Part shown: in pieces, positions 13,292 through 25,760 of the stretch | Layout: the number at the start of each line of letters is the position of its first letter | How positions within the stretch are numbered: position 1 is the stretch's first letter | Assembly (NCBI RefSeq): GCF_012272835.1 | Contig: NZ_JAAWWK010000001.1 | Coordinates: forward strand, 248,001 to 312,000 | Reading direction: 5' to 3' | DNA: 64,000 nucleotides | From: Spongiibacter thalassae | Lineage (GTDB): Bacteria; Pseudomonadota; Gammaproteobacteria; Pseudomonadales; Spongiibacteraceae | Notes under the pieces: model-generated | Seen by the model: only the letters and a program-made list of their open reading frames with translations | What the model was told of the DNA's origin: nothing | The model's database searches: none | Program-made: the position numbers and the translations under genes

Positions 13292-15196
13292 ATGAACTCA
13301 AGTGCTCAGCCGGTTGTGCCACCTATTCCCTTGCGGGAGGCCACATTTGGTCCGTTGATTGGGAAGCGCGTAACCCGATTCTTTATCGTTCTGACACTTG
13401 TGTTTCTGGTGGGGTTTGGCTTGACCTTTTCTGAGTCGCCAAATGTTATCGCTTTAGGGGTAGGTATGCAGTTCCCCGGGGCTGGCTTTCTCTACACGGG
13501 TGGCATCCTTGGTGTATTTCTTTTCTTGCTGACATTGGTGTTTTTTGGTCTGGCGGCATTTGCGTGGTTTGGCGCGGGCATGATTGTGGCACCGCCAATT
13601 GTGTGGGGGCTGGCCGCCCTCGGCGCCTACGGTTTGGCTGATAATAATAGCTGGAACGTATTTGTGTATGCGGTGCCCACGATAGTAGTGCTTGGTGCGG
13701 TAGTTGGTGCTTACAAACGTCGCCGGCAGCACCTCGCTGAGCTGGAAGTTGCAAAAGAGCGCAACAGATATCTGGCGAAAGCGACCTCACGAGAGAGAGA
13801 TGGCGCAATCACTGTCAGTGAGGAAATGTCGCCGGAAGAGCTGGCCAGCTTGAGATTTGTGCTGGATCTGGGCTTGCAGCCCCTGGAAAGCTTTGAGGGA
13901 TTTGACTTCCTGGATCAGTTTCAGTCCGCTGCTACCCGCTATCAGGTCGATTACGCGCAGTACGGTCTGGCGATTGCACAGTTTACCCGAACGCCCGCCT
14001 TCACCGGGTACATGCAGAAGGCCCAGGAAAACCTGATCAAGAAAAAGCTGGATAAGCGCATGTGGTCGTATTGGTTTCTGGAAAATCTCTGGGGAAATTT
14101 CCGCTTCGATGCTGACCCGATCCGCAAGGATAACGTGATGTACTCCGGTAATACCGGCCTGATGATTGGTCTGTACGAAACGGTTAACCAGGACTATCAA
14201 TTTTCGGCACCGGGAAGCATGCCGTTCAAATGGAATGACAAGAAATCCTTCGTGTATGACTTTGGGACGATTTCCGAAGCGGTAGCAAGAAACTATCGTG
14301 AATCAGAAATGGGCCTGATGGTCTGTGAGCCTAACTGGCTCTACAACATGTGTAATTGTATCGGTATGAGCAGCCTGGTATTGCATGACAGATTGCACGG
14401 CACCAGGCACGTTGATGCGATCTATGAGCGCTGGCAGCAGTCGCTGAATGAAGAGTTCCTGACCGGCGACGGGCGCTGCGTCGCCATACGCTCCAGTCGC
14501 TTGGGTATTACCTTGCCAGGCCTCACATCGATGACGAGTGACGCCAACTTTATCTGGTACTTAAATGCTCTTGATCCTGGTCATGCCGACCGCTTGTGGG
14601 CGATTTTGCGGAAGGAGTTCGCCAAAATTACGCCGGAAGGCGAACTGGATCTAACTCTGGTAGGGCCCGATAAGATGGACGTGGGAACCTACAAGGGCGG
14701 CTGTGATATGGGCGGCTGTACTGTATTGATGGAAACTGCGGCGGAGATGGGTGATCTAGAGCTGTGGAATAAGTTGAAAGCCTATATAGAAAAGGAAAAT
14801 CCCCCGGTTACGAAGGACGGTGTTCGCCGCTTCGAGGTGTCCACTATATTGAACACCATCTACATTATGGGCCTCTTTGCTCGGCCAAATGTTTGGCGGG
14901 ATCTTATCAATAATGGGATGCCGGAGGAGTGGAAGAATGGCCCGCTGCTTTCTGATGCACCCTATCCCGATGTCCTTGTTGCCAAAGCGGTTTCCGACGG
15001 TACTCGCCTGGATCTGGTGCTGCGCCCGGGTAGTGACAAGCACGACGCGGTGCTTAAATTCCAGCGCTTGAAGCCTGATACGCGTTATAAGGTCGAGGGT
15101 ATGCCAGGAGCGGAAGTCGTAGCAGACGGTGAAGGCTGTTCACAGTTGGCGATCGAATTGGGAGATCGGCTGGAGTTGTCCTTGATCCCGGCATAA
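13292..15196 (+). CDS. Membrane-anchored linalool dehydratase-isomerase-like protein (LDI-like 1)
   Basis: About 634 residues from ATG13292 (AGAGGTGA upstream; GTG13283 is an alternative). There are three parts. Residues 27-141 contain four hydrophobic helices with the motif QFPGAGF. Residues about 185-530 resemble Castellaniella linalool dehydratase-isomerase: DADPIRKDNVMY, then GLMIGLYE, then VCEPNWLYNMCN followed by LVLHDRLHGT. The Cys345-x8-Cys354 pair matches the LDI active-site pair recalled as Cys171/Cys180, and Asp192 in VLDLGLQP may match its Asp39. From 552 to the end a beta-rich domain (PYPDVLVAKA) is added that LDI lacks. It probably hydrates, dehydrates or isomerises a tertiary or allylic isoprenoid alcohol. 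A strong terminator follows. Confidence 0.75.
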   Translation: MNSSAQPVVPPIPLREATFGPLIGKRVTRFFIVLTLVFLVGFGLTFSESPNVIALGVGMQFPGAGFLYTGGILGVFLFLLTLVFFGLAAFAWFGAGMIVAPPIVWGLAALGAYGLADNNSWNVFVYAVPTIVVLGAVVGAYKRRRQHLAELEVAKERNRYLAKATSRERDGAITVSEEMSPEELASLRFVLDLGLQPLESFEGFDFLDQFQSAATRYQVDYAQYGLAIAQFTRTPAFTGYMQKAQENLIKKKLDKRMWSYWFLENLWGNFRFDADPIRKDNVMYSGNTGLMIGLYETVNQDYQFSAPGSMPFKWNDKKSFVYDFGTISEAVARNYRESEMGLMVCEPNWLYNMCNCIGMSSLVLHDRLHGTRHVDAIYERWQQSLNEEFLTGDGRCVAIRSSRLGITLPGLTSMTSDANFIWYLNALDPGHADRLWAILRKEFAKITPEGELDLTLVGPDKMDVGTYKGGCDMGGCTVLMETAAEMGDLELWNKLKAYIEKENPPVTKDGVRRFEVSTILNTIYIMGLFARPNVWRDLINNGMPEEWKNGPLLSDAPYPDVLVAKAVSDGTRLDLVLRPGSDKHDAVLKFQRLKPDTRYKVEGMPGAEVVADGEGCSQLAIELGDRLELSLIPA

Positions 15197-15207
15197 AAGC
15201 GTAAGGT

Positions 15208-15245
15208 GAATGCGACCTTTCCAGGGAGAGGTCGCATTCTTTTTT
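15208..15245 (+). terminator. Rho-independent terminator after LDI-like 1
   Basis: Perfect 11-bp stem GAATGCGACCT (15208-15218) / AGGTCGCATTC (15229-15239), a 10-nt loop, then TTTTTT (15240-15245), 12 bp after the LDI-like stop. It ends the TonB receptor/LDI-like operon. Confidence 0.93.
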
Positions 15246-15423
15246 ACAATTGTTAGTTTAATTGGCCGGCCTTCTTTTTGATGATGTCAGAGGTTGTTTG
15301 GCCTGAATGTGTTGCCAATTAAGCTTTGGCGGTGACAGTAAAGTAATGGGCTGGATAAGAAGTAGGTAAAAGGGTCGAGCTGCTCCCCGTTAAAGGGCAG
15401 CCCGGTTGCAGTTCTACGCTGGC

Positions 15424-16203
15424 TTATTCAAGGGTATCGACGACATTTTCAGACCAGCTTTGGCTGGCCAAGATGGCCTCGACTTCGTTTAGATGCTGCC
15501 GCCAGAATTTGACTGCTTCATCAGCGCGTTCTTTTTTAATCAGCTGTATTAGTCGTCGCTGGGCACTCAAGGTATGGTCGGCAGCCGATTTTCTGTCGAA
15601 GCCACCGTCGGGCGCCTTATAAATCTGGTTTTCATAGATGCTTTCCAGCATTCTCATCATGAGTATGAGGGTCTGGTTTTTAGTGAGGTCGATAAGTGTT
15701 GAGTGAAAGCGTGAAACACTTTGGGCCAGGGCGCCAATATCCTGCCCTAACAAGGCTTTTTCTTCTTCCTTGTGAAGCTCGGTAAGTACGGCTTCCGCTT
15801 CCTCGGAAGAGTTCTCTATAACAAGGCGTACTGCCGGAGGCTGAATTAATTGATAAACCCTGAAAAGATCAATGGTGGTGACCTTGCGGCTTTGGAGCAA
15901 GAGCCCGAAATGTCGTGCGGCGATCTCGGGGTCGGGAAGGTGAACAGTCGGTCCTCCACGGGCGCCGCGGCGGACGCTGATCAGTGACTCCGATTCGAGT
16001 ATCCGCAATGCTTCGCGCAAAGTGGGGCGAGCGATGTCGAACTTTTCCATTAGCTCAGATTCGGGGGGCAGGTTCGCACCCGGTTCTATCTCGCCCCGAA
16101 TAATTTGGCGACGAAGCTCCTTGGCGACGAGTTCGCTGATCTTTGGAGTTCGAAACTTGTCGTTTGCTGTTGATTTTGCGGTCGCTATCGTTTTGTTGTT
16201 CAA
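15424..16203 (-). CDS. GntR family regulator with FCD ligand domain
   Basis: A 259-residue regulator. The N-terminal winged HTH (about 20-90) has the GntR signature: LRRQIIRGEIEPGANLPPES, then RPTLREALRILESESLI. The C-terminal all-helical FCD domain (about 100-250) carries the metal-binding histidine pattern RFHSTLIDL. FCD proteins usually repress catabolic operons and release DNA when an organic acid or related ligand binds. The gene is divergent from the CMD-like gene at 16505, and its promoter overlaps AGTATACTATA, a motif repeated in three other promoters or intergenic sites of this block, so autoregulation and control of both LDI-like operons is inferred. Confidence 0.9.
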   Translation of the reverse strand: MNNKTIATAKSTANDKFRTPKISELVAKELRRQIIRGEIEPGANLPPESELMEKFDIARPTLREALRILESESLISVRRGARGGPTVHLPDPEIAARHFGLLLQSRKVTTIDLFRVYQLIQPPAVRLVIENSSEEAEAVLTELHKEEEKALLGQDIGALAQSVSRFHSTLIDLTKNQTLILMMRMLESIYENQIYKAPDGGFDRKSAADHTLSAQRRLIQLIKKERADEAVKFWRQHLNEVEAILASQSWSENVVDTLE

Positions 16204-16504
16204 AAGCTGTGTCTCGCGATTCTGTTGCGTTATAGGAGTGCAATTGCGGCACTGAGTATACTATAAAAAGCTTGCAAATCATTTGGCAACTATTTAAGTG
16301 ACAATTTTCGGTGTGCAGGCTGTGCTTGCTTTCCCCCCTTTGTTTAGCTGTGGGGGAGTTTTTCGCAGAATTCGTCAACATGTATTGTGTTCGCGAATTT
16401 ATATATAGTGTACTAGGTTATATATAGGTGTGTGGGAATTTCTGGAGCGTGCGGTCGTGCCGCCCGCAGAGTTGTAGTGAGTTAGGTGAGCTTAAGGAGG
16501 TTTT
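16204..16504. promoter_or_regulatory. Divergent control region, GntR / CMD-like genes
   Basis: A 301-bp AT-rich spacer. On the minus strand TTGCCA (16289-16284), an 18-bp spacer and TATAGT (16265-16260) form a GntR promoter. Its -10 lies inside AGTATACTATA (16255-16265). Toward the CMD-like gene the reverse of nearly the same motif, TATAGTGTACT (16404-16414), sits in a run of TATATA. GGAGG just before ATG16505 is an ideal ribosome-binding site. The two sites fit autorepression plus control of the divergent gene. Confidence 0.6.
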
Positions 16505-16906
16505 ATGCAAAACGAAGAAAGAGTAGCTAAGGGCAGGCAGCTGGTAGAGCGGATGTTTGGTGACGGAATACTGAATTATCTTGAAGGGAAGGCAGGTTCC
16601 GAGGGGTTTGGGTCTCAAGGGGCGAGATTGGCTTTAAGGGATATTTTTGGCGGGGTGTGGGTTGACGACACCCTGTCGCCTCGAGAGCGAAGTATCGCAA
16701 CTTTATCTATGCTGATCGCCTTGAGAGCTGAAGGCGAGATCCAAAATCACGTGCGGGGAGCGGTCAATAACGGCTTGTCTGCGAAAGAAATCGAGGCTCT
16801 TATTTTGCACTCTGCTTACTATTGCGGCTTTCCAGCATCGGGAGTGGCCCTCCAAGCTGCTGAAACGGTTCTGACAGAGATGGGAAAACTGAATAACGCT
16901 GAGTAA
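16505..16906 (+). CDS. Carboxymuconolactone decarboxylase (CMD/AhpD-like) family protein
   Basis: A 133-residue single CMD domain. It shows LSPRERSIATLSMLIAL, then EIQNHVRGAVNNGLSAKEIEALILHSAYYCGFP, the standard gamma-carboxymuconolactone decarboxylase pattern. Unlike AhpD it has one cysteine (in YYCGFP) and no Cys-x-x-Cys, so peroxidase-type disulfide chemistry is unlikely. Family members decarboxylate or isomerise cyclic acids, and many act in unknown steps. The strong AAGGAGG ribosome-binding site suggests high expression. Position, next to the GntR gene and between the two LDI-like genes, implies a role in the same pathway. Confidence 0.82.
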   Translation: MQNEERVAKGRQLVERMFGDGILNYLEGKAGSEGFGSQGARLALRDIFGGVWVDDTLSPRERSIATLSMLIALRAEGEIQNHVRGAVNNGLSAKEIEALILHSAYYCGFPASGVALQAAETVLTEMGKLNNAE

Positions 16907-17462
16907 TAAATAGCTAAAGGCGCCGTTACTGCGCAACCGGGTGCGGCGCCGAATGTAATGCGGTTGATATTCGCGGTAAACGCCAACATTATTGACATAG
17001 CATACTAAGTATGCTTTTATAATGTCAGTGATACCTTTATCAACTGCAGGCTCCGTGAAGTGTTGATGCGTTTTCATCGCGCTTACGGCGAATGTGAAAG
17101 GGTTGGTGGGCAGGGTCGGAATGCAGATCGTTAACCACTGACAATGATTGCAGTGGCAATAAAATTTTACGGAGTCCAGTGGTTAAGGGCTGCAGTTTAG
17201 GTAACGCTTGTTCGCTGAAATTTAGCTTGCATTATTACTATAACGAGGACGATGTCTGCGGCCCGCTACAATTAGCTAAGCAAGGCTCCTGTGATAGTTC
17301 GAGTGCGCGAATAGCATGTGTTCACTAGCTGCCAAAATTCGTCTCGGCTTTCAGTGTTAAAGCAAATTTTGTTTGCCAGAAAATATGGCCTTACCGGACA
17401 CGTATAGCACAACATAAATTGGCATTTTTTGAATTAACAACCTTTATGCGAAGAGTAATTCT
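16907..17462 (+). promoter_or_regulatory. Long intergenic region with operator-bearing promoter and ~430-nt leader
   Basis: A 556-bp gap. A GGCGCCG/CGGCGCC hairpin (16919-16950) without T-tract follows the CMD-like gene. TTGACA (16992-16997), a 17-bp spacer and TTTTAT (17015-17020) form a promoter whose spacer carries the perfect palindrome GCATACT-A-AGTATGC (17000-17014), sharing ACTAAGTAT with the receptor promoter at 10692. From there to the SDR start at 17463 about 430 nt hold no convincing gene; a long leader, a second promoter or a small RNA are all possible. Confidence 0.5.
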
Positions 17463-18230
17463 ATGACAAAAAAAGTTGCATTAATCACGGGTGGCGGCAG
17501 CGGGATGGGCCAGCTTATGGCAAAACAGCTGGCCGAAAAAGGCCACCGTGTGGTCATTCTCGACGTTAACGAGCCCGGCATGGTGGAGACCTGTAAGTCG
17601 AATGACAATATCAGCTACTTTGTCTGCGACGTTACCAATCGAGAGCAGGTTGAAAACATTGTTGCGGAAGTTGAGAAGGATGTCGGGCCGATATGGAGAA
17701 TGGCCCATGCAGCAGGAATTATGCCCGGTGGTACATTGGTTGATATGCCATCAGAAAAAATTGTTCAGTTAATGATGATTAATTATGGCGGAACCGTTCA
17801 TTTAACTAAGGCTGTTATGCCATATATGCTGAAACGCAATGCTGGTGAAATCATCATCTTCGGCTCCTCAGCAGGTATAGTGCCAAGCTCAAATCTCGGT
17901 GCTTATTGTGCAACGAAGTCCGCAGTTAACACCTTTACTGAAGTGCTTCACTATGAAAACCGTGGTAATAACATCAAGATCCTCCTGGTTTGTCCTCCTG
18001 CGGTCGATACCCCGCTGATTAAGCAAGCACTTGATACCGGTCCAAAGGGCCTCGAGTCAGCGGCCAAATCCGGGAAAATGGCCGATGCGGGCTCTATTAT
18101 TTCGGCTATCGAAAAAGGATTGGAAAAAGGAAAATGGAAAGTGTTGCCGGGAGAGGCTGCGGCAGGGGAATTTCTGCGTAGATTATCACCGTCGCTCCTC
18201 TGGAAAATTGTCGACGCAAGTAATAAATAA
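17463..18230 (+). CDS. SDR family dehydrogenase, paired with LDI-like 2
   Basis: A 255-residue classical short-chain dehydrogenase. It has TGGGSGMG (cofactor loop), HAAGIMPGG in place of the usual NNAG, a catalytic Ser in GSSAG, and YCATK. The C-terminal part after the active site is SDR-typical but lacks the usual 'DGG' ending. Base composition is AT-richer than the genes of the 40-59 kb region. The second LDI-like gene follows 34 bp later, so the two are cotranscribed. By analogy with geraniol dehydrogenase working after LDI in Castellaniella, it may oxidise the alcohol formed or used by the LDI-like enzyme; this is inference. Confidence 0.8.
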   Translation: MTKKVALITGGGSGMGQLMAKQLAEKGHRVVILDVNEPGMVETCKSNDNISYFVCDVTNREQVENIVAEVEKDVGPIWRMAHAAGIMPGGTLVDMPSEKIVQLMMINYGGTVHLTKAVMPYMLKRNAGEIIIFGSSAGIVPSSNLGAYCATKSAVNTFTEVLHYENRGNNIKILLVCPPAVDTPLIKQALDTGPKGLESAAKSGKMADAGSIISAIEKGLEKGKWKVLPGEAAAGEFLRRLSPSLLWKIVDASNK

Positions 18231-18264
18231 TTTCAAGCAATCTATTGAGAAGAGATGTAGGTAT

Positions 18265-20211
18265 ATGCAAACAGACGCCGCCAGAAGTGTAATTTGGGAT
18301 AATTTGCCGAAAATTACAAAGAAGAAGCTCCACGGGAATATCACGTCGCGCCTGCGTCGCCGAACTCTTGTTCTCTACCTGCTGTTGCTGGTCGTTGGGG
18401 CGGCGCTGGTCGTCGGGGGCAGTACAACGTACCTGCAGGTCTTTGGTCTGGGTTTGGCCTTTCCCGGGGCAGGCTTTTTTGCCGCGTCGTGGTGGGCCTT
18501 CTTATTCGTTCCATTGACGATGGTTTTATTTCTTGTGGCAATGGCTGCATGGTTGTTTACCGGTAACCTTATGGCGCCAATAGCCATTTGGTTGTTGTCA
18601 GCCGTGCTCGCTCCGCTATCCAGTCATCACGTCGCTGACTGGGTGCTGCCCACCGTCATTGCGTTACCTCTTGCTATTCTGGTTATGGCTTTTTTTGGAT
18701 CAAAATCCAAGTTGAAAAAGCAGATGGCAATCCAAAGTAAAAGAAATGCATTGCTCGATAATATTCCCGCGTTAATGTCGAATATGTGTGAGGACAAGCC
18801 AAATCCTGGTGAGAGCGAGCTGAGCCACACCGATTTGAAGGTGATGCGCTATTTGTTCGACCTATCCTTACAGCCTTTCGGGAAGTTTGATGGATTTGTA
18901 AGAAAGGACAACTTTCAACCGGCAGCATTGCGCTATCAGCTTAATCATATTCAGTACACTTTAGGTGTTATGCAGTGCCACTACACGCCGAATTTTCACG
19001 GCTATTTGAATGAGGCTCAACGCTATACCATAGAGAGCCTGACTCTGCCTGAGGTGTGTGGCTATTGGAAGCTCGAGAGTGTTTGGGGGAATTTTACCTG
19101 GAACCCTGATCCTGTCGATACCAAAGATAATATTATGCTCACCGGTTGGTCGGGCCATTGCTTGGGAACCTACGCACTCAATACCGGAGATACACGGTAT
19201 TTCGAAGAAGGTTCGCTGGCGTTTAAACCGTTCAAAAAGGAAAATTCAAAACGCTATAAACATAGCAACCACACCTTTGTGGACTCTCTGCTCAAAAACT
19301 GGAATCAGTGTAATTACTTCCTGTTTCCGTGTGAGCCGAATTTTGTATATGCGCAGTGTAATCTTTATGGATACGGAGCGCTCGCGACCTATGATCTAGT
19401 CACCGGATCAAATCATACCAACGATATCGACTCCAGATTCAGAGACAACTTGAAAGAAGAATTTGAGCTGGCAACAGGGGACATCCAGCCTATTTTGTCT
19501 AACTTAACCGGATTACCCTTTCTCTTTAAGCCATCGGTCGTTGCAAATTTGTCTAATGTGCATCTGCTTAATGTTGTAGATCCCAAGCTGGCTCGTCGTA
19601 CATACGGCCTATTTCGTACTGAGGATATGAAAATAGTAGATTCAGATACCCTCGATCTTAACCTGACCAATATGGATTCCGTAGATCCAGGGAACTATAC
19701 CAAAAGCTTCGCTTTTACTTACAGTTGGGTAGCTGCCGCGGCCGGAGAGATGGGAGATAGAGAGGTTGCTCGATTAGCGCTGGAGAAGGTTGAGAAGGAA
19801 TATTCTCTGCAAGAGAAAAATGGCGCGCTCATGTTGGAAGGTGTTTCGGTTATTACGGCGGCAGACTACGCTCTGGCGAGGATTATCAAAACCGATTTTT
19901 GGCGAGACAGTGTGCTAGTCGGACCATCAAGTACGACAAAATCCGGGCCGATATTATCAGACTGCCGCTACCCCGATGTGTTGGTGGCGAAAGCATATAG
20001 TCACGACGGCGTATCTCTTGACTTGGTGCTTTATAACGGTAATGAAAAAGGCGATCAAGAGATTGTAGTTAGTCGGCTGGAGGAAAACAGGCAGTATAAA
20101 TTGCAGGTTTCCGGGCGCGAGGATGTACTGGCGGTAGCAAGTGATACCGGTGAAATTCGCACGAATGTTTATATTGATGGACGTACGGCTATTACCTTGT
20201 CGCCGGTTTAA
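18265..20211 (+). CDS. Membrane-anchored linalool dehydratase-isomerase-like protein (LDI-like 2)
   Basis: 648 residues from ATG18265; the frame is open further upstream but there it overlaps the SDR gene. The three-part layout matches LDI-like 1: four hydrophobic helices within 32-145 (with AFPGAGF at 66-71), an LDI-like alpha/alpha-barrel (NPDPVDTKDNIML, then FPCEPNFVYAQCNLYGYGAL) and a C-terminal beta-rich domain (CRYPDVLVAKAYS). The Cys356-x8-Cys365 pair is kept, and Asp199 in LFDLSLQP matches Asp192 of the paralogue. Overall similarity to LDI-like 1 is clear but moderate, so the two probably act on different substrates or form a heteromer. It is followed by a tiny membrane-protein gene. 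Confidence 0.75.
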   Translation: MQTDAARSVIWDNLPKITKKKLHGNITSRLRRRTLVLYLLLLVVGAALVVGGSTTYLQVFGLGLAFPGAGFFAASWWAFLFVPLTMVLFLVAMAAWLFTGNLMAPIAIWLLSAVLAPLSSHHVADWVLPTVIALPLAILVMAFFGSKSKLKKQMAIQSKRNALLDNIPALMSNMCEDKPNPGESELSHTDLKVMRYLFDLSLQPFGKFDGFVRKDNFQPAALRYQLNHIQYTLGVMQCHYTPNFHGYLNEAQRYTIESLTLPEVCGYWKLESVWGNFTWNPDPVDTKDNIMLTGWSGHCLGTYALNTGDTRYFEEGSLAFKPFKKENSKRYKHSNHTFVDSLLKNWNQCNYFLFPCEPNFVYAQCNLYGYGALATYDLVTGSNHTNDIDSRFRDNLKEEFELATGDIQPILSNLTGLPFLFKPSVVANLSNVHLLNVVDPKLARRTYGLFRTEDMKIVDSDTLDLNLTNMDSVDPGNYTKSFAFTYSWVAAAAGEMGDREVARLALEKVEKEYSLQEKNGALMLEGVSVITAADYALARIIKTDFWRDSVLVGPSSTTKSGPILSDCRYPDVLVAKAYSHDGVSLDLVLYNGNEKGDQEIVVSRLEENRQYKLQVSGREDVLAVASDTGEIRTNVYIDGRTAITLSPV

Positions 20212-20234: not shown

Positions 20235-20435
20235 ATGGCGTGCTGTGTGCTGGCTGGCCTATTCATCTACTACCTAACGTGCATCAGGAAAAAGGCCGTG
20301 TCTTTGGTTAGTCGAAACGCGGTGTTGGCTGTTGCGGTGGTATTTCTGGGATACGTTGTCGTGTTTCACGGCGAACATATCGCGTATGAGTTGGGTATGG
20401 GCGGTTCAACTGCGGATCACTCACATCATCATTAA
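20235..20435 (+). CDS. Small two-helix membrane protein with His-rich tail
   Basis: 66 residues from ATG20235 (GGAG six bases upstream), 23 bp after the LDI-like 2 stop and 27 bp before the kinase gene. Two hydrophobic segments, CVLAGLFIYYLTCI and NAVLAVAVVFLGYVVVF, are joined by a basic loop (RKK), and the protein ends in HSHHH. The family was not recognised. Its size, tight placement and metal-binding tail suggest an accessory subunit or metal-handling partner of the upstream membrane LDI-like protein, but no function can be assigned. Confidence 0.65.
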   Translation: MACCVLAGLFIYYLTCIRKKAVSLVSRNAVLAVAVVFLGYVVVFHGEHIAYELGMGGSTADHSHHH

Positions 20436-20462: not shown

Positions 20463-21530
20463 ATGAGTTCCAAGGTAACCCTGGATTTACCACTGGCCCC
20501 GGAGGGATTAACAACAGAGTGGCTGGAGTCGGCGCTGTCGATACGCTACCCGAGTGTAAAGCTGGCATCCAGCGAAGTCTGTAATGTCGTCGCAGGCACT
20601 GCGAGCAAGATCAATGTTGCGTTGAAATATGATAATGGCAACCCGCACGGCCTTCCTGAATCCATGTATATCAAAGGTGGTTTTCATGGTGCGGAGCAAC
20701 TGGAGTTAGCGGGCGCTGGCTATCATCAAGAGGTGGGGTTCTATCAAAATTTTGAAAATCAGCTGGACGGCCTTGAAATACCGAAGAGCTTTTTCGCGGG
20801 AGCCAATGACGCAAACGGGCAAGCGATTGTTATTCTTGAAGATTTAACACAGCGACAAGCTACCTTTGGCAATGCGACCGCGCCCATGAGTGTTGATATG
20901 ATGGCCAAAACCATGGAATGGTTGGCTCATCTTCATGCGACATTCTGGAGCAAGCCTCCTGTCGACGCTAACATTCCCTGGCCCGGGGTTGTAGGTAGCT
21001 TGATCGACGTTATGTTGGCCGATGATTATTGGGGGCCGATGACCTCCCGTCCACTTGCCAAGCCATTGCCGGAAGTGGCCCGTGATCCGAAAGTTGTGCG
21101 TAAGGCACTAATGAGTATGTGGGAGACATTTGGCTCTCAGTCGAAAACCTTTATTCATGGTGATGCTCACCTGGGGAATATGTATTTCGTAGATAATGCG
21201 CCCGGATTTTTGGACTGGCAGAGTCCGATGCTGGGGCCATGGTCAGACGATGTGACCTATGCATTGATCGGCGGCCTTACGGTCGCCGACCGACGATCCA
21301 ACGAAAGAGACTTGCTGAGGCATTATCTTGACGCGCTGCAGCGGCTCGGGGTTGAGAGTGCGCCAATGTTTGACGAGGCATGGCTGGCCTATCGGCAGCA
21401 AGTTATGCACGGGTATATGTGGGTGGCGACACCGCCGTCTATGCAGCCTGATGATATAGTCGGTGCAAATGTTGAGAGATTTTCCGCTGCGCTGGAAGAC
21501 CTTGAAACCCTAAGCGCGTTAGGGGTTTAG
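20463..21530 (+). CDS. APH/choline-kinase-like phosphotransferase
   Basis: A 355-residue kinase-fold protein. The catalytic loop is HGDAHLGN (Asp234) and the metal-binding motif is LDWQ (Asp251), both diagnostic of the aminoglycoside-phosphotransferase/CHK superfamily; LEDL in the hinge region is also typical. The start ATG20463 has AGGAG 8 bp upstream. Such proteins in catabolic clusters are known to phosphorylate a hydroxyl to make it a leaving group (for example LvaA for 4-hydroxyacyl-CoA). A similar role on a hydroxylated isoprenoid or acyl-CoA is plausible here but not shown. A second, longer family member is at 24291. Confidence 0.82.
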   Translation: MSSKVTLDLPLAPEGLTTEWLESALSIRYPSVKLASSEVCNVVAGTASKINVALKYDNGNPHGLPESMYIKGGFHGAEQLELAGAGYHQEVGFYQNFENQLDGLEIPKSFFAGANDANGQAIVILEDLTQRQATFGNATAPMSVDMMAKTMEWLAHLHATFWSKPPVDANIPWPGVVGSLIDVMLADDYWGPMTSRPLAKPLPEVARDPKVVRKALMSMWETFGSQSKTFIHGDAHLGNMYFVDNAPGFLDWQSPMLGPWSDDVTYALIGGLTVADRRSNERDLLRHYLDALQRLGVESAPMFDEAWLAYRQQVMHGYMWVATPPSMQPDDIVGANVERFSAALEDLETLSALGV

Positions 21531-24290: not shown

Positions 24291-25760
24291 ATGAAAATAA
24301 ACAGCAGCGATAACTATCTTCGCCTCGCTTTGCGAGCCATTGACGAAGTGCTAATGCCTGAAGTCTCGTCGTCAGCGGCGAAATCGACCATTGAAATTTT
24401 AAAAACCACACTGAAGGAACTACGCAAACGGGAGGCGGGTGCTTCGGAGGTATTGCGCGAGGTGATTGGCAACGGCCAGGCGCTGTACACCGAGGTCAAG
24501 CACGCATTGGGTGAGCAGGCTGAGCCTGTCGTAGAAGATCTGTCGTCGCTGTCGTGGGCAGCGCTGACAGAAGTCTACGAAAATTTGGTGCGGCAGCTGA
24601 GTGGTGTGGCGGAAAAACTTGAGGTTGCTGAACCGGGTAATAAGGCGCCTTTGCTGCGAAAAATCGCCGAATGGGAATTGAGCTACTACGAGAAAATGGC
24701 TGGAGTCACTGTGGTCGACTCAGCGAACGCTGATCTCGCCACGGCGCAGGAAGGCCAGGTAAGCCTGGACAAAGCCTTGCTGGAATCGTTTTTAAACAGT
24801 GCCAACCTCGAGCCACAGTCGTCGGTACAACTTGACACCTTTCAGGCATTGCCAGGGGGATTTGGCAAACAGACCTATATGTGTGCCTACACTGGCGAGG
24901 GTGACCGTCGCCGCGAGCTGGTCGTGCGTAAAATGGACCCCCAGCCAATTATGCGTCACGGCGCCTGCAGTCTTGAAAGGGAATACGCCCTGTTGCGTGC
25001 GTTACCCGAAGACTATCCAGCACCAAAGCCCTTCGCCTACGCGGAAAACTGGCGCAATGTCGACGGTGACTTTTATGTGATGGAACGCAGTCTCGGTGAC
25101 GTGCCCGGTGCATTTCTTCACGGTATGAGTGGCGAGGTTCCCGAAGCAGTATTCCTCGATCTTGCCACTTATCTTGGCAGGCTGCACAGCCTGCCAGTGT
25201 CGGATTTTGCCACCTATGCGAGGGAGTGCGAGACATCGGGTGTTCTCGACGGCGATACCCGCCATGCCTACCTTCGAAATATGGCGGGCTGGGATGCCTA
25301 CATACAAAATGAAGAGCATCTGCCCTCGCCCTATCTGCACTGGTTGATCCACTGGTTGGCTAACAATATTCCTGCGGATGAGCGTCCACCGGTACTGGTA
25401 CACGGCGATTTCAATATTCATAACGTGCTGGTTCACGAGGGACGTATTTCCTGCATTCTCGACTGGGAGTGCGCGGGCTTTGGCGCCGCTGAGCAGGACC
25501 TTGCCTATATCCGCCCCCACATCAGTCAGCACATCGACTGGCAGCGCTTTCTCGACCACTACCTTGAGCATGGCGGTCGCGAGCCTCGTGAAGACATGAT
25601 GCGCTATGGCATGGCATATGCGGCCTTACGCACCAATCTGGCAGGCAATAAAGCTACGCTGAATTTGCAAACCGGGCGCAATCAGGATCTGCGCTACGCG
25701 ATGGTAGAGCTGGGCTTTACACCGTCGTTTATGCAGTTGGCGTTGGGCAATACCGATTGA
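24291..25760 (+). CDS. APH-like phosphotransferase with helical N-terminal domain
   Basis: 489 residues. Residues 1-150 form an acidic, probably helical domain of unknown function (STIEILKTTLKELRKREAG). The kinase-fold part starts near 175 and holds LEREYALLRALP, YVMERSLGD, the catalytic loop HGDFNIHN (Asp373) and LDWECAG (Asp391). The start has GGGGGAG upstream. This layout resembles the phosphotransferase genes found beside acyl-CoA dehydrogenases in catabolic clusters. It may phosphorylate a hydroxyl of a CoA or alcohol intermediate. It is distinct in length and sequence from the family member at 20463. Confidence 0.8.
   Translation: MKINSSDNYLRLALRAIDEVLMPEVSSSAAKSTIEILKTTLKELRKREAGASEVLREVIGNGQALYTEVKHALGEQAEPVVEDLSSLSWAALTEVYENLVRQLSGVAEKLEVAEPGNKAPLLRKIAEWELSYYEKMAGVTVVDSANADLATAQEGQVSLDKALLESFLNSANLEPQSSVQLDTFQALPGGFGKQTYMCAYTGEGDRRRELVVRKMDPQPIMRHGACSLEREYALLRALPEDYPAPKPFAYAENWRNVDGDFYVMERSLGDVPGAFLHGMSGEVPEAVFLDLATYLGRLHSLPVSDFATYARECETSGVLDGDTRHAYLRNMAGWDAYIQNEEHLPSPYLHWLIHWLANNIPADERPPVLVHGDFNIHNVLVHEGRISCILDWECAGFGAAEQDLAYIRPHISQHIDWQRFLDHYLEHGGREPREDMMRYGMAYAALRTNLAGNKATLNLQTGRNQDLRYAMVELGFTPSFMQLALGNTD

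Follow-up and report, generated by a model that had tools for sequence, protein, structure and literature searches.

The window analysed here is a stretch of 64,000 nucleotides from Spongiibacter thalassae (contig NZ_JAAWWK010000001.1, positions 248,001 to 312,000). It carries two genes of the linalool dehydratase-isomerase (LDI) family, together with a small gene whose product starts with the motif M-x-C-C and is referred to below as the companion. P0001 (13292..15196, plus strand, like all window features of this section) encodes a Lis-type membrane-anchored enzyme of 634 residues, and P0002 (18265..20211) a second Lis-type enzyme of 648 residues. The companion gene (20235..20435), detected as an open reading frame (ORF) and by a motif scan, starts 24 bases after P0002; its product of 66 residues begins with MACC and possesses two predicted helices and a His-rich tail. 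A total of four Ldi copies were found in the S. thalassae genome, two of them inside the window. G numbers denote genomes and L numbers the loci compared.

Both enzymes match the Pfam family Ldi (PF18566) far above its curated cut-off of 26.1 bits, P0001 with E 8.6e-85 (285.5 bits; residues 216-515, 13937..14836) and P0002 with E 2.5e-76 (257.6 bits; residues 223-528, 18931..19848). They are also nearly full-length matches to Lis of Thauera linaloolentis (ENO87364, locus L032), which is 36% identical to P0001 over 639 alignment positions and 36% identical to P0002 over 636; the lis locus was itself recovered by our genome scan for Ldi relatives. The first-pass annotation of this DNA had regarded the two proteins as a separate, novel membrane-bound branch. 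This view has to be given up, since the anchored form was published as Lis of T. linaloolentis in 2016 (PMC4791888), and P0001 and P0002 are new members of this known enzyme kind.

The same annotation had described one three-part layout for both products, and its motifs are present in both: FPGAGF (residues 61-66 in P0001, 66-71 in P0002), the cysteine pair at exactly the positions given (CEPNWLYNMC, 345-354, 14324..14353; CEPNFVYAQC, 356-365, 19330..19359), and YPDVLVAKA (558-566 and 569-577). The spacing of a DP-x5-DN-x-M motif needs correction, being x3 in P0001 (DPIRKDNVM) and x4 in P0002 (DPVDTKDNIM). An AlphaFold2 model of P0001, based on a 60-row alignment, reached a mean predicted local distance difference test score (pLDDT) of 95.4 and a predicted template modelling score of 0.94. 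Model helices (21-44, 50-60, 64-69, 71-95, 100-115 and 123-161) and hydrophobic segments outline a helical membrane anchor with FPGAGF at residues 21-161 (13352..13774), and strands of the model outline a C-terminal beta domain at residues 552-634 (14945..15193).

All eight matches of P0001 in a sequence search of PDB are LDI. P0002 reached LDI weakly (E 0.0015), and a profile built from 79 family members reached it with E 3.1e-32. A Foldseek comparison of the P0001 model with PDB placed LDI chains at ranks 1-27 (E from 5.6e-14), followed by a wide margin by a phage tail protein, GH127 and GH76, so that the annotated kinship to LDI is borne out by both the Pfam match and the fold. Both cysteines are invariant in all 79 aligned relatives and align with the active-site pair C170/C179 of LDI (5hlr numbering), as had been proposed from their spacing. 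The upstream Asp was likewise correctly said to be kept: the position of P0001 D192 (13865..13867) is D or E in 75 of the 79 relatives, and D192 is the probable counterpart of LDI D38, the LDI profile alignment starting only after this position. An aromatic residue occupies the position of LDI H128 in 77 of 79 rows, with Asn in P0001 and Trp in P0002. Among these rows His occurs there only in the protein of G123, whose N-terminus is signal-like; the H128 motif also has His in the G532 protein, with a hydrophobic N-terminus. These few cases suggest that His may accompany exported proteins and an aromatic residue the cytosolic type. The C48-C101 disulfide of LDI is not kept, as C101 aligns to a non-Cys profile position and C48 precedes the alignment.

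A tree of 79 Ldi-family proteins, made by a short search and with long branches, pairs P0001 with L014 (support 92) and groups P0002 in a five-protein set with Alcanivorax, Sphingobium and Clostridiaceae proteins (support 97). Because they are placed apart, the two appear to be deep paralogs and not the result of a recent tandem duplication. The copy of this genome in L009 pairs with L041 (support 100), and that in L010 was unplaced. This fourth copy (L010:6864-8762) has Asn at the conserved Asp position and no companion nearby, and it may be inactive or altered.

No match was found for the window companion in Pfam and NCBIfam, and neither database names a family for the M-x-C-C members, whose matches are scattered and involve one or two of them at a time at E 0.001 to 0.1. 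A search for a solved relative gave none (best E 0.91). Two profile alignments were used, A2 with 25 companion members and A3 with 27 members of actinobacterial type, one of them from Fluviicoccus. All A2 members share M1, C3 and C4, and at least 90% of them have a C-terminal Cys; in A3, C3 and C4 are likewise invariant and a FAPPARR-like stretch often follows the helix. The window member lacks the C-terminal Cys, its His-rich tail containing none, and it is matched in the genome at E 3.5e-4 by a companion profile that includes it. A second hydrophobic segment rises above threshold in 23 of the 25 A2 members. Over 23 A2 members the mean charge is +5 in the loop and about 0 in the tail, and the tails contain His in 23 of 23 and Cys in 21 of 23. 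Basic loops face inward according to the positive-inside rule, which predicts an inner loop and an outer CC end and tail for the companion. In the model of the window companion (pLDDT 69.5), helices span residues 2-24 and 27-52.

Linkage and co-occurrence of the companion

A total of 93 Ldi-relative stretches were confirmed by the genome scan. Hydrophobic ORFs of 35-260 residues starting with M-x-C-C were then sought in 83 loci of 1,548,011 bases altogether, comprising 80 of the 93 relatives, the L009 and L010 regions, and the window. Such an ORF lies at most 600 bases from the Ldi-type gene in 63 of the 83 loci, 62 of them clean; the ORF counted for L083 is spurious, its place being that of an L086 companion homologue lacking a usual start, and L081 has one spurious extra. 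The number expected by chance in the adjacent space, estimated from eight non-member ORFs, is 0.56. Fourteen M-x-C-C ORFs were found elsewhere in the scanned loci, six of which look like true members.

Adjacent companions occur in Pseudomonadota, Actinomycetota, Myxococcota and Bacillota. They are located upstream of the Ldi-type gene in 48 of the 62 loci, downstream in 6 and on the opposite strand in 8, and 50 of the 62 are on the same strand and within 100 bases. Their lengths range from 39 to 237 residues (median 108). A leader peptide or a chance ORF is ruled out by this length range and by the downstream, opposite-strand and distant placements. Variants seen by eye in L062 and L091 were left uncounted, and L057 has the same gene (cluster 6), probably cut by the contig end. 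A member lies farther off in five more loci, namely L021, L068, L029 and two Thauera loci. The companion of T. linaloolentis is 7.7 kb upstream of lis; judged by coordinates, its probable place is the 3488-base interval that the Thauera paper draws as a gap between atuH and atuC (PMC4847356). No partner of Ldi or Lis was found in the literature at listing level, in a coverage thin for subscription journals.

The companion occurs both with the anchored class and with a soluble class of about 470 residues, and thus it is not merely a substitute anchor. Searching the 17 genomes of 18 loci with the A2 profile matched 16 genomes, once each; the exception is a Nocardia with an adjacent companion of actinobacterial type. 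Six of the 16 belong to A2 members and match by construction, and the other ten do not. For six of those ten genomes (seven loci: L037, L040, L044, L045, L064, L066 and L070) the companion is elsewhere, with none in the original locus. The newly found members are beside a further Lis-type gene (L101, L104), beside a biotin-carboxylase-type gene (L103, L106), or alone (L102).

Co-occurrence was also examined by profile searches across genomes. Candidates in these searches (145 relatives, the 17 genomes above, Nocardia and 369 genomes of the class) were partly scored, and absences are weak. Among 18 same-genus genomes, Ldi was found in G000, G003 and G015; these three also have the companion, for which G007 gives a weak match. 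The 145 relatives contain Ldi in five genomes and the companion in four, with an overlap of three (Fisher p 8e-5); the two Ldi genomes without companion (G123, G099) encode proteins with signal-like N-termini. Ldi is present in 6 of the 369 genomes of the class and the companion in 3, one of which, a stretch in a 573-residue frame, was taken as spurious. The others are G000 and G368; the latter is apparently the genome of L093 (coordinates as in G155), also an A2 member. No companion was seen for G489, G532, G323 and G450 within the 3.5 to 5.5 kb examined. Of 118 Nocardia genomes, 18 have Ldi and 7 the companion, with 6 shared (p 3.6e-5). The profile search undercounts Nocardia companions, because the gene is present in 10 of 13 regions that represent 14 of the 23 Ldi matches in Nocardia. 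Five of these ten regions (L110, L111, L112, L120, L121) have a longer enzyme class with open frames of 750-828 residues and without a plain Cys-x8-Cys; alignments for three of this class show extra residues between the two Cys.

Proposed role of the companion and competing explanations

We consider it probable that P0001 and P0002 are Lis-type isomerases with a cytosolic catalytic domain and that the M-x-C-C proteins, with the local member at 20235, are their conserved partner family. The enzymes would be anchored in the inner membrane with the LDI-fold domain in the cytosol, and a lipophilic tertiary allylic alcohol would be taken up from the membrane. Its hydroxyl might be removed by acid-base catalysis with the Cys pair and the Asp, and water returned at the primary carbon, giving an allylic primary alcohol that dehydrogenases could oxidise before degradation via coenzyme A (CoA) esters. 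The companion would be a short membrane protein with a basic inner loop that probably contacts the enzyme, and the vicinal Cys pair, plus the His/Cys tail in the proteobacterial form, may be a redox, metal or cross-linking site at the outer face. Most likely it is a subunit holding, feeding or maturing the enzyme at the membrane. The first-pass annotation had suggested a hetero-complex with the 20235 protein; the functional link now has strong genomic support from linkage and co-occurrence, and physical contact is a plausible extension of it.

A more far-reaching proposal is that the cytosolic-type Ldi and Lis enzymes are two-component systems, in which the M-x-C-C membrane subunit is required for activity through assembly, substrate entry or a redox/metal site. 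We hold it tentatively, as a possibility slightly weaker than its opposite. Lis made in E. coli was reported to reach the membrane and yet to be inactive, for which its authors suggested incorrect folding (PMC4791888). If true, the two-component arrangement explains the inactivity of Lis made alone, and the partner family would have been overlooked because its members are tiny and unnamed. With the companion, the inactivity of recombinant Lis can be addressed by direct experiment, the missing partner being a testable cause. Should activity depend on the companion, a class of enzymes whose first recombinant test gave no activity could be put to use, and small proteins found across several phyla would gain their first functional assignment. 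LDI-type enzymes attract interest with regard to isoprene and butadiene (PMC6013536). The candidate for novelty is the companion family and not the enzymes, and it could surprise a specialist. Papers of 2018 and 2019 termed Lis the only known LDI relative (PMC6013536, PMC6600392), and the Ldi family is already in Pfam, with the 93 stretches here confirmed by one genome scan.

Several observations weigh against the companion as a partner of these enzymes. The companion was not seen at the loci L046, L067, L073 and L076, the search being of the locus only, and P0001 and the L010 copy have none of their own, with two elsewhere in the genome of L010. G489 has a soluble-type Ldi and no companion, either in 5.5 kb or by the A2 profile, and whole-genome co-occurrence by profile is partial in Nocardia (6 of 18 Ldi-bearing genomes). 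Two genomes have companion-like orphans and no Ldi match, in G007 adjoining a TonB-receptor-like ORF (L099:7450-7593) and in G188 beside a Zn-alcohol dehydrogenase (L107:5222-5386). The CC end is predicted on the outer side of the membrane, remote from the active site in the cytosol, and recombinant LDI is apparently active without such a partner.

These orphans fit an explanation that we regard as rather unlikely, in which the M-x-C-C protein acts in the same pathway with no enzyme partner, for example as a small protein that serves uptake, efflux or stress protection against terpene alcohols, whose toxicity is described (PMC4847356). The distance of the Thauera companion from lis and a G149 member between unrelated-looking genes are consistent with it as well. 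However, the tight same-strand spacing in 50 of 62 loci, with companions found upstream, downstream or on the opposite strand, and the association with anchored as well as soluble enzymes in several phyla argue for the partnership. It is unlikely that the enzymes are mainly dehydratases or hydratases producing dienes, LDI-like, and not isomerases. LDI performs both reactions and the Cys pair is retained, but the H128 place is aromatic in nearly all rows and Asn in P0001, and for Lis a dehydratase activity different from that of Ldi is reported (PMC4791888).

Gene neighbourhood and substrate

A short-chain dehydrogenase gene (17463..18230, plus strand; PF00106) ends 34 bases upstream of P0002, and an EcKL/APH-type kinase gene (20463..21530, plus strand; PF02958, PF01636) follows the companion by 27 bases; judged from this spacing, the former is likely in the same operon as P0002. 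Two APH-type small-molecule kinases are encoded near the Ldi genes, at 20463-21530 and 24291-25760. A 25-hydroxysteroid kinase is known from anaerobic cholesterol breakdown (PMC8449060). The window further encodes short-chain dehydrogenases, P450s, aldehyde dehydrogenases, a Rieske oxygenase, FadB, thiolase-like proteins and TonB receptors. No biotin-carboxylase match, a sign of atu genes, was found among the window ORFs scanned, which are a subset of all. Nine of 25 window genes have no match in 82 loci (E 1e-10, half coverage), including PhyH, a carboxymuconolactone-decarboxylase-like gene, the EcKL kinase and DUF7065.

Across 80 loci, the neighbour clusters (single-linkage groups of overlapping ORFs, each named by one representative) include those represented by an aldehyde dehydrogenase at 12 loci, an acyl-CoA ligase at 9, a biotin carboxylase at 6 and a Zn-alcohol dehydrogenase at 5. 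These frequent neighbours would fit a route from tertiary to primary allylic alcohol, aldehyde, acid and CoA ester and on to carboxylation, comparable to the atu route. In the window, the P450, short-chain dehydrogenase, aldehyde dehydrogenase, Rieske, FadB, thiolase-like, TonB and kinase genes lead us to guess a larger terpenoid or steroid as substrate, and larger isoprenoids for P0001 and P0002 are likewise a guess. Action on hydroxylated steroid or triterpenoid side chains, with a tertiary 25-hydroxyl moved to C26 without oxygen, is also unlikely. The P450s, Rieske oxygenase, FadB and a lipid-transfer-type thiolase of the window speak for it, and for cholesterol a step of LDI type had once been proposed (PMC3691188); however, the step later found in Sterolibacterium is a kinase route (PMC8449060), and the Lis-type loci of Thauera accompany atu genes. 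That the enzymes are glycosidase-like alpha/alpha-barrel proteins functionally unrelated to LDI can be dismissed, since LDI holds the first 27 ranks of the fold search at E below 1e-12, against about 1e-5 to 1e-4 for GH127 and GH76, no unrelated barrel scores better, and Pfam gives Ldi alone.

Comparison with exported relatives, LDI and Lis

Exported Ldi relatives (L100 of G123, L124 of G532, L127 of G099) share the Ldi match and Cys-x8-Cys with the window proteins, but have signal-like N-termini by eye, and L100 and L124 retain His at the H128 motif. No M-x-C-C gene was found near the three in the 5 to 19 kb examined. The secreted-looking protein of L100 (L100:8829-11257), with His at the H128 place, is encoded 5' of a DsbA-like thiol protein whose start, by eye, resembles that of a lipoprotein. 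L125 and L127 are distant Ldi relatives with CENTKIWPYC and CENTKIWPFC at the Cys pair region, and the N-terminus of the L127 protein is twin-arginine-like.

LDI of Castellaniella is a pentamer with the active site between subunits. The C. defragrans enzyme (PDB 5g1u, 5hlr) resembles the window proteins in the fold of the central domain, in C170/C179 and probably in D38. Unlike them, it is a soluble periplasmic enzyme that lacks both the anchor and the C-terminal domain, and it has H128 and the C48-C101 disulfide (PMC6600392), which are absent from their pattern.

Lis (EC 5.4.4.4) is the closest known counterpart in architecture, with N-terminal membrane helices, an LDI-like domain and a C-terminal part as in the window proteins. 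It is described as a protein of 644 residues, the first 139 of which include four predicted helices, with a cytosolic domain resembling LDI; the protein is located in the inner membrane, requires a reductant and isomerises geraniol to linalool (PMC4791888). P0001 differs from its relatives by the Asn that replaces the aromatic residue at the H128 place. The lis gene lies among atu genes with its companion at a distance, whereas the window genes lie among P450, short-chain dehydrogenase, kinase and TonB-receptor genes; both loci possess an M-x-C-C gene within the same cluster.

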